A DNA stretch of 10,309 nt from Candidatus Parcubacteria bacterium (lineage in GTDB: Bacteria > Patescibacteriota > Patescibacteriia > PEXW01). The stretch spans positions 1 to 10,309 of the forward strand of contig QZJU01000003.1 in the NCBI GenBank assembly GCA_003597955.1. Reading direction: 5' to 3'. The notes beneath the pieces are model-generated. The model was not told the origin of the DNA and ran no database searches. It worked only from the letters and a program-made list of their open reading frames with translations. A program made the translations under genes and the position numbers. Each line of letters begins with the position of its first letter. Within the stretch, counting starts at the first letter, position 1. This document shows positions 6,068 to 9,560 of the stretch, piece by piece.

Positions 6068-7042
6068 ATGACTGAAAATCCTCAAATATTCAAACAAATT
6101 CACCAGGCAATTGAAAAAGCCAACGAAATCTTGCTGATTGCACACCAAAAACCCGACGGCGACACTTTAGGGGCCAACCTGGCAATGGCGAATTGGCTAA
6201 AAAGCTTGGGCAAGCATTTTCATATTTTTTGCCTGCATCCCGTGCCTCAACATTTGCGTTACCTGCCGCTATGGGAACATGTGCAGTACACGGATACGGA
6301 AATTTCCCGCATTCCATTCGAAGCTGTGATCTTTATTGATTCTTCGAATGTCGCTTACGCTGGCGCCGGAGCAATTCTGGAAAAACTAAAAAACCATGCC
6401 ACGATTATTAACATTGACCACCATGCCAGCAATCCTGGCTTCGGCGATTTAAATTATGTTGACCCCGACGCCTCTTCGGCCTCGGAAATGATTTACCGTT
6501 TCTTTAACTACCACCAAATTCAAATCAACCGTGACATTGCCACCTGCTTGCTAACCGGCATTTTGACTGACACAGGCGGCTTTTCCAATCTGGCTACCAC
6601 CCAAAGTTCCATGAAGATCGCTGGCAAACTTTTGGGTTATGGCGCCAAATTCCGCACTATCACCAATCACACTGTAAAAAATAAAACCGTCAACACCTTA
6701 AAACTCTGGGGCCGGGCTTTGGACCGTTTGACCCGCCACGCAGACGGCATTGTCAGCACGGTAATTACCCAAGCGGATCTGCAGGAATACGAAGTCACGG
6801 ATGAAGACCTGGAAGGCATTGCGAACTTTTTAAACGCCCTGCAGGACGCTCGTATAATCATGGTTTTAAAAGAAGACCCGACAGGTTTTGTCAAAGTCAG
6901 TTTGCGGACCACCCAAGACGGAGTGGATGTGACTGAATTGGCGAATAAATTTGGCGGGGGCGGGCACCAAAAAGCCGCCGGTTTTAGCCTGCCGGGCAAG
7001 CTCATCCGCACGCCCACTGGCTGGCGGATTGAAGCGGTTTGA
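6068..7042 (+). CDS. DHH/DHHA1 phosphoesterase, NrnA-like (nano-RNase / pAp phosphatase)
   Basis: The 324 residues match bacterial NrnA proteins, which degrade very short RNAs and, in some cases, pAp or cyclic-dinucleotide products (pApA). The DHH domain carries all metal ligands: H26, D30 and D32 in AHQKPDGD, D91 in FIDSS, the signature DHH at 117-119, and D168 in LTDTGGF. The C-terminal DHHA1 domain ends in the substrate-binding glycine loop GGGGHQKAAGF (296-306). It therefore looks fully active with Mn2+. Which substrate it prefers cannot be read from sequence. It has its own promoter and a nearly leaderless start, and lies in an RNA/translation neighbourhood after infB and rbfA; nrnA next to rbfA is a common gene order. 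It lacks the extra RecJ domains, so recJ is unlikely. Confidence 0.9.
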   Translation: MTENPQIFKQIHQAIEKANEILLIAHQKPDGDTLGANLAMANWLKSLGKHFHIFCLHPVPQHLRYLPLWEHVQYTDTEISRIPFEAVIFIDSSNVAYAGAGAILEKLKNHATIINIDHHASNPGFGDLNYVDPDASSASEMIYRFFNYHQIQINRDIATCLLTGILTDTGGFSNLATTQSSMKIAGKLLGYGAKFRTITNHTVKNKTVNTLKLWGRALDRLTRHADGIVSTVITQADLQEYEVTDEDLEGIANFLNALQDARIIMVLKEDPTGFVKVSLRTTQDGVDVTELANKFGGGGHQKAAGFSLPGKLIRTPTGWRIEAV

Positions 7043-7078: not shown

Positions 7079-7342
7079 ATGTCAGAATTAAATTCTAACT
7101 ATCTTGACGAAAAACTTAGGCTGACGCAGACCGCTATACTGGAAGCGGTTAATCAGGGCTTTTCTGAGCAATATCAGCGTATTTCTAAGATTGAAGAAGA
7201 TTTGTCAGCGTTGACAACTTCGGTTGATAGATTTGCTAAAATCTTCACTGACTTGAACCAAGAAGTGATCGTTCTGCGTCAGCAACTTAGAGATGCGGAG
7301 ATTAAACTTGAAAAATTAGTCCCGCAGAACAAAGCTGCCTAA
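7079..7342 (+). CDS. Small coiled-coil protein, 87 aa, unknown
   Basis: It has no signal peptide or membrane segment. Residues 12-80 show a heptad-like pattern of hydrophobic residues (LRLTQTAILEAVNQ, ISKIEEDLSALTTSVDRFAKIF, LNQEVIVLRQQLRDAEIKLEKL) and should form long amphipathic helices. Small coiled-coil proteins of this type, with a DRFAK segment followed by a leucine-rich helix, are frequent in Parcubacteria and have no assigned function. A dedicated near-leaderless promoter and clean start suggest a real, expressed gene. It lies between the DHH gene and the broken avd, but nothing links it to the DGR beyond position. Confidence 0.75.
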   Translation: MSELNSNYLDEKLRLTQTAILEAVNQGFSEQYQRISKIEEDLSALTTSVDRFAKIFTDLNQEVIVLRQQLRDAEIKLEKLVPQNKAA

Positions 7343-7384
7343 CAGATTAAATAAATTAGCAAATCCTATGTATGCCGAGCTATT

Positions 7385-7549
7385 CAGAAAACGGATACGC
7401 TAAAAATACCACTTCTTATCTTGTGGGAAACGAAATCACTGGATAACAAAAAGTACATCGCCTTATCGGTGAAAATAGACGAAATCGGCAAAATGCTGGG
7501 TGGTTGGAATGGACAACTAACAAAACAAAACTCTCCTAACAGATATTAG
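7385..7549 (+). pseudogene. avd: Remnant of avd-like four-helix-bundle gene (DGR accessory)
   Basis: This frame is open with no usable start codon and gives the last helix and tail of a four-helix-bundle protein of the S23/bAvd type found with DGRs: residues TDTLK, ETKSLDNKKYIALS and KIDEIGKMLGGW, then QLTKQNSP before the TAG at 7547-7549. CPR members typically end in this ...EIGxMLGGW... pattern (from memory of the family). Helices one to three are absent; the preceding sequence reaches the coiled-coil gene in about 40 nt. Avd is a pentameric partner that brings template RNA to the DGR reverse transcriptase. It runs opposite to the TR, and its stop codon is inside the TR terminator hairpin. 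Confidence 0.65.
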
Positions 7550-7554
7550 GAGAG
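7519..7554 (-). terminator. Terminator of the template-repeat RNA
   Basis: CTCTCCTAA (7531-7539) pairs perfectly with TTAGGAGAG (7546-7554). Read on the minus strand the stem is followed by a T-rich tract (TTTTGTTTTGTT, 7519-7530). It lies 12 nt past the TR on that strand, so it would give the TR transcript a defined 3' end. It could also serve as the hairpin sometimes found beside DGR repeats. Confidence 0.7.
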
Positions 7555-7566
7555 AAATGAAGTGAG

Positions 7567-7701
7567 TTGCGGGAACCAAGAACACGAAGCCGATCTCACG
7601 ATTCCACCTGTTGTCAGGATTGCCGTTGTACGTGTTCAGCCAACGACCATCGTCATTGCGGTTGACGCCGAGCATGTTCAGGTTGCCATCCGAATCGGTT
7701 A
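7567..7701 (-). other. DGR template repeat (TR), 135 nt
   Basis: The 135 bp align without gaps to 8067-8201 at a constant offset of 500 bp. All 12 differences fall on adenines of this copy (minus strand), out of 33 adenines, changing to G (9) or T (3) in the other copy. That is the signature of DGR mutagenic retrohoming, and it identifies this copy as the template. If translated, it would read GNLNMLGVNRNDDGRWLNTY and on, rich in AAC/AAT codons, the codon choice that lets adenine mutation reach many amino acids. The open frame of 82 residues through it (7517-7765) is probably a by-product: its ATG lies inside the predicted -10 box. Confidence 0.92.
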
Positions 7702-7763
7702 CGTATAGCGGGCCATCCATACCACCACCCTTTGATAACTCTCGGGGTTGTATCGTATCCGAC

Positions 7764-7792
7764 ATATTAAATGCCCTAGCACGCTATACCAA
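7764..7792 (-). promoter_or_regulatory. Candidate promoter of the TR RNA
   Basis: On the minus strand TTGGTA (7792-7787) and TAATAT (7769-7764) are 17 nt apart. Transcription from about 7757 to the terminator at 7519-7554 would make an RNA of about 230 nt with the TR in its middle. Confidence 0.45.
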
Positions 7793-7934
7793 GTAGCTTC
7801 ATTTTTAAGTATGTACACTTCGCGCTATCCCAGACCGTGATCTGAAGATATTCTGGAATGTATAAATACTGGATTCGGTAGCGGAAAGCCTTGACCGTCC
7901 GCGTATTCACCTACTACCATTGTTATTTTATCAG
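7793..7934. other. Spacer between TR unit and target-gene terminator; no gene seen
   Basis: No ORF of convincing composition or RT-like motif is present on either strand here. A short minus-strand frame starting MVVGEYADGQGF and ending in GLG is open for about 32 codons, but I do not recognise it. This is where a DGR reverse transcriptase or its remnant might be expected, and none is recognisable. Confidence 0.4.
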
Positions 7935-7989
7935 AAAAAAAGAAACCCTGCATCCATCATTCACATGTTGCGAAGACGAGATGCAGGGT
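7935..7989 (-). terminator. Terminator of the DGR target gene
   Basis: ACCCTGCATC (7945-7954) pairs perfectly with GATGCAGGGT (7980-7989). On the minus strand the stem is followed by TTTCTTTTTTT (complement of 7934-7944). It lies about 70 nt past the target gene's stop codon. Confidence 0.85.
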
Positions 7990-8018
7990 CATACGTTTGT
8001 CCAAGGGCTAAAGCCAAG

Positions 8019-8032
8019 GGTCTAAGAAGACC
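8019..8032 (-). other. Small hairpin just past the variable repeat
   Basis: GGTCT (8019-8023) and AGACC (8028-8032) flank a 4-nt loop, 34 bp beyond the VR end at 8067. In the Bordetella phage DGR a short 4-nt-loop hairpin just past the VR is needed for efficient retrohoming; this one has the same position and loop size but a shorter stem. A second small stem, GGCT/AGCC, lies beside it at about 8006-8014. Confidence 0.4.
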
Positions 8033-8055
8033 AAAGGTTTGAAGCCCAAAAGGAC

Positions 8056-8682
8056 TTATTTGCTACTTGCGGGAACCAAGAACACGAAGCCGATCTCACG
8101 ATCCCACCTGAAGTCAGGATTGCCGCCGCACGCGACCAGCCAACGACCATCGTCATTGCGGTCGACGCCGAGCATGTTCAGGCCGCCATCCGAATCGGTT
8201 ATAGGCTCGTGCACGAGAATGAGCGCCCAGAGGTCCATCTTTTTGAGATCTTCATCTGAGAACATCTCTCGTAAGTAGGGACCTAATTCGACGGTCGGAT
8301 CAGCAAGCCCGCGAGCGTGAGCGACTTCTCTGATGTTCTTGTTTGTCCGGTCATCATCCTCGAACTCGTCGCCCATGATGACGGCGAGTTTGTAGGTGGT
8401 GCCGTTAGTGGCAACAAACTTCACATTGCGAAGCAGTTGCTTCGCATAGTCGCCGACTCGGAAGTTGTTCTTTTCGAGATCGGCGATGCACTGCTCACCA
8501 GAACGACCGTTGGTCGTCACATCGAAAGTTGGAGGAATGCCCCAGGGCTGTTGCCCACGGAGCATCTTTTTGAGAGCGTTAAGCCACATCTTGCCATTGG
8601 GGCCAGCGAGCTTTTCTTCCAAATCTTTCCTCGGTCCCTGGATCTCAGAGAGCGAGAGATTACCGAGCATACCTTCCGGCAT
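8056..8682 (-). CDS. DGR target protein with variable C-terminal domain
   Basis: The protein has 208 residues and no signal peptide or membrane helix, so it is probably cytoplasmic. The N-terminal two thirds are conserved-looking: LSLSEIQGPRKDLEEKLAGPNGKMWLNALKKML (9-41), a middle mixed region with TYKLAVIMGDEFED (96-109), and helix DEDLKKMDLWAL (144-154). The C-terminal 45 residues carry the VR and resemble the C-type-lectin/FGE-like ends of CPR DGR targets (DGRWL...GNPD.RW....GFVFLVP). Positions changed from the template are G167, D174, V183, A184, C185, G186, F191 and D194. ATG 8682 has a strong AAGGAGG (8695-8689) with good spacing, unlike the nearly leaderless housekeeping genes. A promoter and a structured leader of about 170 nt lie upstream. 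The ligand is unknown. Confidence 0.88.
   Translation of the reverse strand: MPEGMLGNLSLSEIQGPRKDLEEKLAGPNGKMWLNALKKMLRGQQPWGIPPTFDVTTNGRSGEQCIADLEKNNFRVGDYAKQLLRNVKFVATNGTTYKLAVIMGDEFEDDDRTNKNIREVAHARGLADPTVELGPYLREMFSDEDLKKMDLWALILVHEPITDSDGGLNMLGVDRNDDGRWLVACGGNPDFRWDREIGFVFLVPASSK
8067..8201 (-). other. DGR variable repeat (VR), 135 nt
   Basis: This is the partner of the TR at 7567-7701, covering codons for about residues 162-205 of the target. Its 12 differences from the TR change eight codons, all to a different amino acid: N to G, N to D, N to V, T to A, Y to C, N to G, N to F and N to D. Between the changed codons the DNA is identical, including third positions. The two repeats also end together at both sides, so the homology is set by retrohoming and not by gene duplication. 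Confidence 0.92.
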
Positions 8683-8731
8683 GGTCAGCCTCCTTCGGTT
8701 TATGGGTTTTTGCTAACAGACTGCCGCCTTG

Positions 8732-8816
8732 GTAGTCATAGCCAGAAAGTACACATGCAGTTATACCCTTGATTCGATTGTGGATCTGATAATGAGTGCC
8801 TTTTGGCTATGACTAC
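8732..8816 (-). promoter_or_regulatory. Long-range hairpin in the leader of the DGR target mRNA
   Basis: GTAGTCATAGCCA (8732-8744) and TGGCTATGACTAC (8804-8816) are perfect 13-bp inverted repeats separated by 59 nt. They lie between the target gene's promoter and its Shine-Dalgarno, in a leader of about 170 nt. The stem closes an AT-balanced internal region with no clear known riboswitch core. It may be a regulatory or stability element, or a protein operator on DNA. Confidence 0.6.
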
Positions 8817-8859
8817 TTTTCTACCCAGTAGCTTTTTAAGGTACAAAATAACGACTTAC

Positions 8860-8975: not shown

Positions 8976-9560
8976 ATGTATTTAGTGCCAACAGTAATCG
9001 AAAAATCCAATTTCGGCGAACGGGCTTATGACATTTATTCCCGGCTTTTAAAAGACCGAATAATTTTTTTGGGCGATATGATTGATGACGCCGTGGCCAA
9101 CACGGTCATTGCCCAGCTTTTATTGCTGGAAAATCAGGATAAGGAAAAAGACATAAAACTTTACATCAATACGCCCGGCGGTTCGGTGACGGCCGGAATG
9201 GCGATTTATGACACCATGCAATATGTCAAACCCGATGTCAGCACTATTTGTGTGGGTATGGCTGCCAGCATGGGCGCTGTGCTTTTGGCCGGCGGCGCCA
9301 AAGGCAAACGGTTTGCCTTGCCGAATTCCGAAATTTTAATCCACCAAGTCATGGGCGGCACCGAAGGCCAGGCTTCGGACATCAAAATCCGCGCCGAGCA
9401 CATTTTGAAAATCAAAGACCGCATAAACCAGATCTTGGCTCACCACACCGGGCAAACAATCAAAAAAATCGAAGAAGACAGCGATCGCGACAAGTTTATG
9501 TCAGCGGAGGAGGCCAAAAAATACGGGATTATCGATAAGATAATCAGCAAGGCGAGCTAG
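8976..9560 (+). CDS. clpP: ATP-dependent Clp protease proteolytic subunit
   Basis: ClpP forms a double-ring, 14-subunit serine protease chamber fed by ClpX, ClpC or ClpA in the cytoplasm. The 194-residue length is standard. The catalytic triad is complete with family spacing: S98 in GMAASMGA, H123 in ILIHQVMGG and D172 in DSDRDKFMS. The oxyanion/strand motif [19 protein letters not shown] (63-81) and start VPTVIEK are typical; there is little or no propeptide before LVPTVIEK. Start ATG 8976 fits the family N-terminus, and no Shine-Dalgarno is visible. It stands alone here: the DGR target lies divergently upstream and no clpX follows. Confidence 0.97.

Follow-up and report, generated by a model that had tools for sequence, protein, structure and literature searches.

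The locus analysed here is very probably a recently inactivated diversity-generating retroelement (DGR), which has left behind a fixed protein that is under purifying selection and whose structural model resembles C-type lectins; the element itself is most likely an inactive remnant. The window, i.e. the whole stretch of DNA analysed (10,309 bp), comprises the entire contig C18 of a 989,930-bp draft genome (G000), assembled in 21 contigs and 98.5% complete. In a DGR, a reverse transcriptase (RT) together with Avd reverse-transcribes the RNA of a template repeat (TR) with errors at adenines, and the cDNA is written into the variable repeat (VR) of a target gene.

Two direct repeats of 135 nt were found at 7567-7701 and 8067-8201; they are gapless, 91% identical and start 500 bp apart, so the coordinates confirm the geometry given in an earlier note on this DNA. 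On the minus strand, the first copy is the TR (peptide TDSDGNLNMLGVNRNDDGRWLNTYNGNPDNRWNREIGFVFLVPA) and the second, located at the 3' end of the target gene, is the VR. A recount gave the same 12 differences that had been reported, all 12 located at adenines of the TR (9 A>G, 3 A>T and 0 A>C, with 33 adenines among the 135 TR positions). The chance of such a pattern, put previously at near 5 in 10^8, was recomputed as 4.6e-8 with the formula used then and as 7.7e-9 with the hypergeometric distribution. Eight codons are affected and all of them change the amino acid (N167G, N174D, N183V, T184A, Y185C, N186G, N191F and N194D); as had been claimed, they cluster in the C-terminal part of the protein, all within the final 42 residues of the 208-aa product. 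The identity of TR and VR, the template assignment and the adenine rule are also borne out by homologous pairs in relatives: in 37 such pairs 562 of 647 differences (87%) fall at TR adenines, which supports the proposal that this lineage has diversified the target protein. No further TR or VR copy was found in the G000 genome. The earlier note had left out that the RT is absent from the window, and its naming of the locus as a DGR holds for the TR/VR pair, which is real, but not for the machinery, since the RT and most of avd have been deleted and neither a DGR RT nor another Avd was found in the genome.

The target gene (8056-8682, minus strand) encodes 208 aa in an intact ORF with the VR at its 3' end, and its relatives are present in 66 of the 380 genomes of the class. 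The conserved domain of the protein covers approximately residues 50-208. No match was obtained in Pfam, NCBIfam, PADLOC or PHROG. The structure model has a mean pLDDT of 83.5, with values of about 90 across most of residues 51-208, and the eight variable residues map in this model to strands E170-174 and E181-185, their surroundings and the subsequent loop. In VIA-align the best Z was 6.1 and the top rows were nearly all C-type lectins or FGE-like proteins; Foldseek gave no significant structure match (E of 1.5 at best). The model suggests a C-type-lectin-like fold for the C-terminal domain, which would be expected to bind a ligand. In comparison with the nearest sequenced relative, Candidatus Kerfeldbacteria CG08_land_8_20_14_0_20_43_14 of the same genus (G001, locus L135), dN/dS was 0.13 in the scaffold before the VR vs 1.2 in the VR; the scaffold is under purifying selection and the VR is not. 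Another target-type gene, distant and belonging to a different subfamily, lies elsewhere in the same genome (G000 C2:18442-18843; L009:5074-5850), with no TR or RT nearby.

The closest complete cassette was found in Candidatus Buchananbacteria RIFCSPHIGHO2_01_FULL_44_11 (G263, locus L134), where the target gene with its VR is followed by the TR (~490 bp on), an antisense avd and a DGR-type RT, whose motif is GNLTSQ. Positions 7365-8824 of the window are collinear with this cassette over ~1.35 kb at 71-72% identity, and the TR peptides are 84% identical. The match ends inside avd, at 7365, which defines the deletion junction (7343-7366); beyond it, both the RT and the first half of avd are lacking. 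What remains of avd is a C-terminal half with no start codon (7355-7549, plus strand, antisense to TR and VR), of which 7367-7549 (+) corresponds to the last 60 codons, with an in-frame stop at 7352 immediately upstream. Where the G263 homology ends, the plus strand reads YVCRAIQKTDTLKIPLLILWETKSLDNKKYIALSVKIDEIGKMLGGWNGQLTKQNSPNRY, then a stop, which is the C-terminal half of Avd; 7367-7537 shows 81% identity to residues 58-114 of the Avd of G093. The Pfam family bAvd (PF22296) also matches the relic, with an E of 3.6e-5 that lies under the family cut-off because the relic is truncated. The relic is the sole Avd found in the G000 genome. The place expected for the RT and the 5' half of avd is occupied by a small coiled-coil gene and then by a DHH/DHHA1 phosphoesterase gene (6068-7042, +). 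The coiled-coil gene (7079-7342) was considered as a part of the cassette and rejected, as no homologue was present in any other locus compared.

An avd relic without a start, together with an intact homologous cassette, shows that the loss happened at this locus, and the relics in the window speak for loss and not for an ancestral target-only state. The ancestral cassette would have had the order target with VR, TR, antisense avd and RT. A deletion, visible at the junction, then took the RT and the 5' half of avd, and with these gone the last diversified VR would have been frozen within an ordinary gene. The TR would remain as a leftover without coding function, in which drift has yet to set in, while the element would no longer diversify and the protein would keep binding the ligand of its last variant. 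None of the 102 non-adenine positions differs between TR and VR, whereas the TRs of the window and of G263 differ at 15 of 96, which indicates that the loss is recent; zero changes in 102 positions correspond, by a rule-of-three estimate, to a 95% upper bound of ~3% divergence.

A DGR RT was not found in the window, nor in the 98.5%-complete genome, with RVT_1 and a DGR-RT profile. The profile built from the DGR RTs of relatives gave nothing in G000 up to E 10, and the same profile was positive at 1e-30 in 153 of the 380 genomes of the class (40%). A DGR RT was thus sought in cis, in trans and on contig C10, and the three search routes turned up a retron-like RT alone, encoded on C10. This RT gene (G000 C10:7801-8694; L008) adjoins the genes of ribosomal proteins L7/L12 and L10.

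A DGR RT may lie on an unassembled piece of the 21-contig draft, and the first alternative to inactivation is that the TR/VR pair is still active, with RT and Avd supplied in trans from such a piece. Remote targets are known (PMC8144416, PMC7517822) and DGR RTs occur in 40% of the class. Among 31 genomes with a target at E <=1e-30, the DGR RT was adjacent in 13, elsewhere in 8 and not found in 10, so that 8 of the 18 that lack an RT beside their close target carry one at another place; the absence of non-adenine changes in the pair is also what an active, trans-served element would show. Supply in trans is nevertheless unlikely, as neither a DGR RT nor an intact Avd is present in a 98.5%-complete assembly and the avd relic indicates that the local machine was destroyed.

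Even less credit can be given to an assembly artefact in which the RT and avd, present in the organism, were dropped or misjoined at 7343-7366. The assembly is a draft with a repeat nearby, and the junction lies 23 bp past a small gene that is missing at the same place in G001. On the other side, the junction is in unique sequence outside the TR/VR repeat, no other contig carries the RT, and an independent locus, L144, is in the same state. The flanks, moreover, are syntenic neighbours in relatives: the DHH gene and clpP (8976-9560, + in the window) lie beside each other, 90 to 150 bp apart, in G263, G166 and G009, where the insert is lacking, and in G001 they flank a different 2.3-kb insert with a gene for a 518-aa membrane-protein-like product. 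A misjoin of distant pieces is therefore unlikely. In G008 (C7:75317-79829; L130) a different DGR, with RT and avd, sits inside the same DHH-clpP gap, which for this reason looks like an insertion hot spot. Three minus-strand tRNA genes (Ala-GGC, Ala-CGC and Arg-CCT) were observed at 206-1290 of the window, the first being partly repeated at 206-260.

It is highly improbable that the C10 RT, although it is the sole RT (RVT_1 protein) found in the genome, took over and mutates the VR from the TR of the window. Its best PADLOC matches are retron RTs (6.7e-33), yet it stays below the NCBIfam retron cut-offs; it carries VVGAPASP instead of the DGR motif (I/V/L)GxxxSQ (PMC3521204), DGR RT queries miss it, and it is unlinked to the locus and has no Avd. 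A duplication by chance or gene conversion with adenine-biased change, in favour of which only the missing RT could be quoted, has P ~8e-9 against it and is refuted by the homology to complete DGR cassettes.

Several structured elements accompany the repeats. Directly 3' of the TR a hairpin was found (7531-7554, minus strand; CTCTCCTAAT...GTTAGGAGAG, then TTTTGTTTTG), which, with its T-run, keeps its position in nearly all relatives' loci and overlaps the antisense 3' end of avd. At the hairpin the last avd codons show a codon identity of 0.84 vs 0.61 expected. This hairpin may mark where the TR RNA ends, form its structured tail, or act as a shared terminator. An RNA overlapping all of avd was rejected, as the raised codon conservation is confined to the last codons, beside the TR. 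A second, stable and nested hairpin lies just after the VR and the stop codon (7999-8055, minus strand), at the position of the DGR target-recognition hairpin, which helps copying into the VR (PMC3240598); it shows modest covariation in relatives and its loop does not fit the GRNA known from phage DGRs. Ahead of the target gene there is an inverted repeat with arms at 8732-8756 and 8792-8816 (GTAGTCATAGCC / GGCTATGACTAC). The arms, ~50 bp before the target start and variable in spacing, are kept in G000, G001 and G263 (L098, L110) although the target genes of these three genomes sit at different genomic places, and the outer arm (8824) is also where the match to the G263 cassette stops.

The family was surveyed from the target gene, with one genome per species, which gave 80 named loci, and a viral collection, which gave 2. 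Among the 69 loci with at least 2.2 kb downstream, 27 were complete, 9 partial and 33 target-only (no TR, avd or RT), counts that are not rates because the loci were picked via the target gene. In 27/27 complete cassettes avd is antisense, lies between TR and RT and faces the RT head to head (e.g. avd at L134:5139-5477(-)); transcripts running from TR to RT would be antisense to avd. Locus L144 (JAUPWA010000074.1) retains a TR and a 27-residue avd relic with no RT, the same state as the window. In L160 (4456-4708) the target gene leads directly into the sequence flanking the TR on its 3' side and then into avd, which is the product that VR-TR recombination would give and another route of cassette decay. 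The RT matches of L166, L167, L171 and L202 are shortened, and some of these may be frameshifts or sequencing errors. In G093 (L138) the 'TR' (L031:6137-6274) has 16 A only and looks diversified, with 4 of 17 differences at its adenines; a VR-like copy may have been written over this template.

On the scaffold tree, in which few branches are well supported, the locus states are interleaved and require 16 to 18 changes; the window sits in a starred clade of six, three of which are complete cassettes. Loss of this kind seems to be frequent among the patescibacterial relatives. Target-only genes could in principle be ancestral. A viral origin of the target family was rejected, since two target-only loci alone were found among 2.9 million viral contigs.

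RT-less DGR fossils are already known from archaea and cyanobacteria, and the window is an unusually clear case with better evidence for loss. In Nanoarchaeota, VR/TR fragments without RT were described as 'fossils' or as remotely targeted (Paul et al. 2015, PMC4372165). They share with the window an adenine-specific TR/VR history with no RT on site, but the choice between fossil and remote targeting is open there, whereas for the window the loss is attested by a relic of avd and by a homologous cassette that is still intact, and RT was sought throughout the genome. Nostoc all3226 has remnant TR-VR homology and no RT (Vallota-Eastman et al. 2020, PMC7517822), and it was suggested that the machinery was removed once a good variant had been found (PMC7517822). 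There, too, the variable-protein gene is retained and the diversification parts are gone; the gene is, however, cyanobacterial and was described as paralogous to other variable proteins of that genome, and no avd relic was described. Schillinger et al. 2012 (PMC3521204) took a clean adenine-only VR/TR pair to mean that the RT had been inactivated very recently, which is how the clean pair of the window is read here, but in their DGRs the RT was hit by a stop, frameshift or insertion and in the window the RT and half of avd are deleted.

The DGRs of Patescibacteria (CPR) are known to form an RT clade of their own; their measured activity is lower and their targets lack membrane anchors (PMC8144416). 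The family described here resembles this DGR clade 2 (Roux et al. 2021, PMC8144416) in its host group, in the RT, TR and VR of the relatives, and in a target without a recognised domain or membrane anchor and with a C-terminal VR; the window differs in having lost RT and most of avd. The Bordetella phage BPP-1 DGR (mtd-avd-TR-brt) likewise has VR, TR and RT in this order on one strand, an Avd and a hairpin after the VR, but the window's family has its avd on the opposite strand, placed between TR and RT.

The survey of Roux et al. (PMC8144416) required an RT beside the VR, hence remnants like the window were not counted; as DGR surveys begin with the RT, genes that went through diversification and later lost the machinery go uncounted. 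In the present set of 69 loci the target-only genes (33) outnumber complete cassettes (27). It can tentatively be proposed that these genes form a 'diversify, then fix' family, in which Patescibacteria repeatedly keep the machine for as long as a useful variant is being sought, then drop it and so build up a large store of fixed binders, the window having been caught very soon after the loss. If target-only genes were once DGR targets, what targeted hypermutation has yielded in these very small bacteria would in large part be frozen protein as opposed to continuing variation, and the selected ligands would be apparent from the fixed variants.
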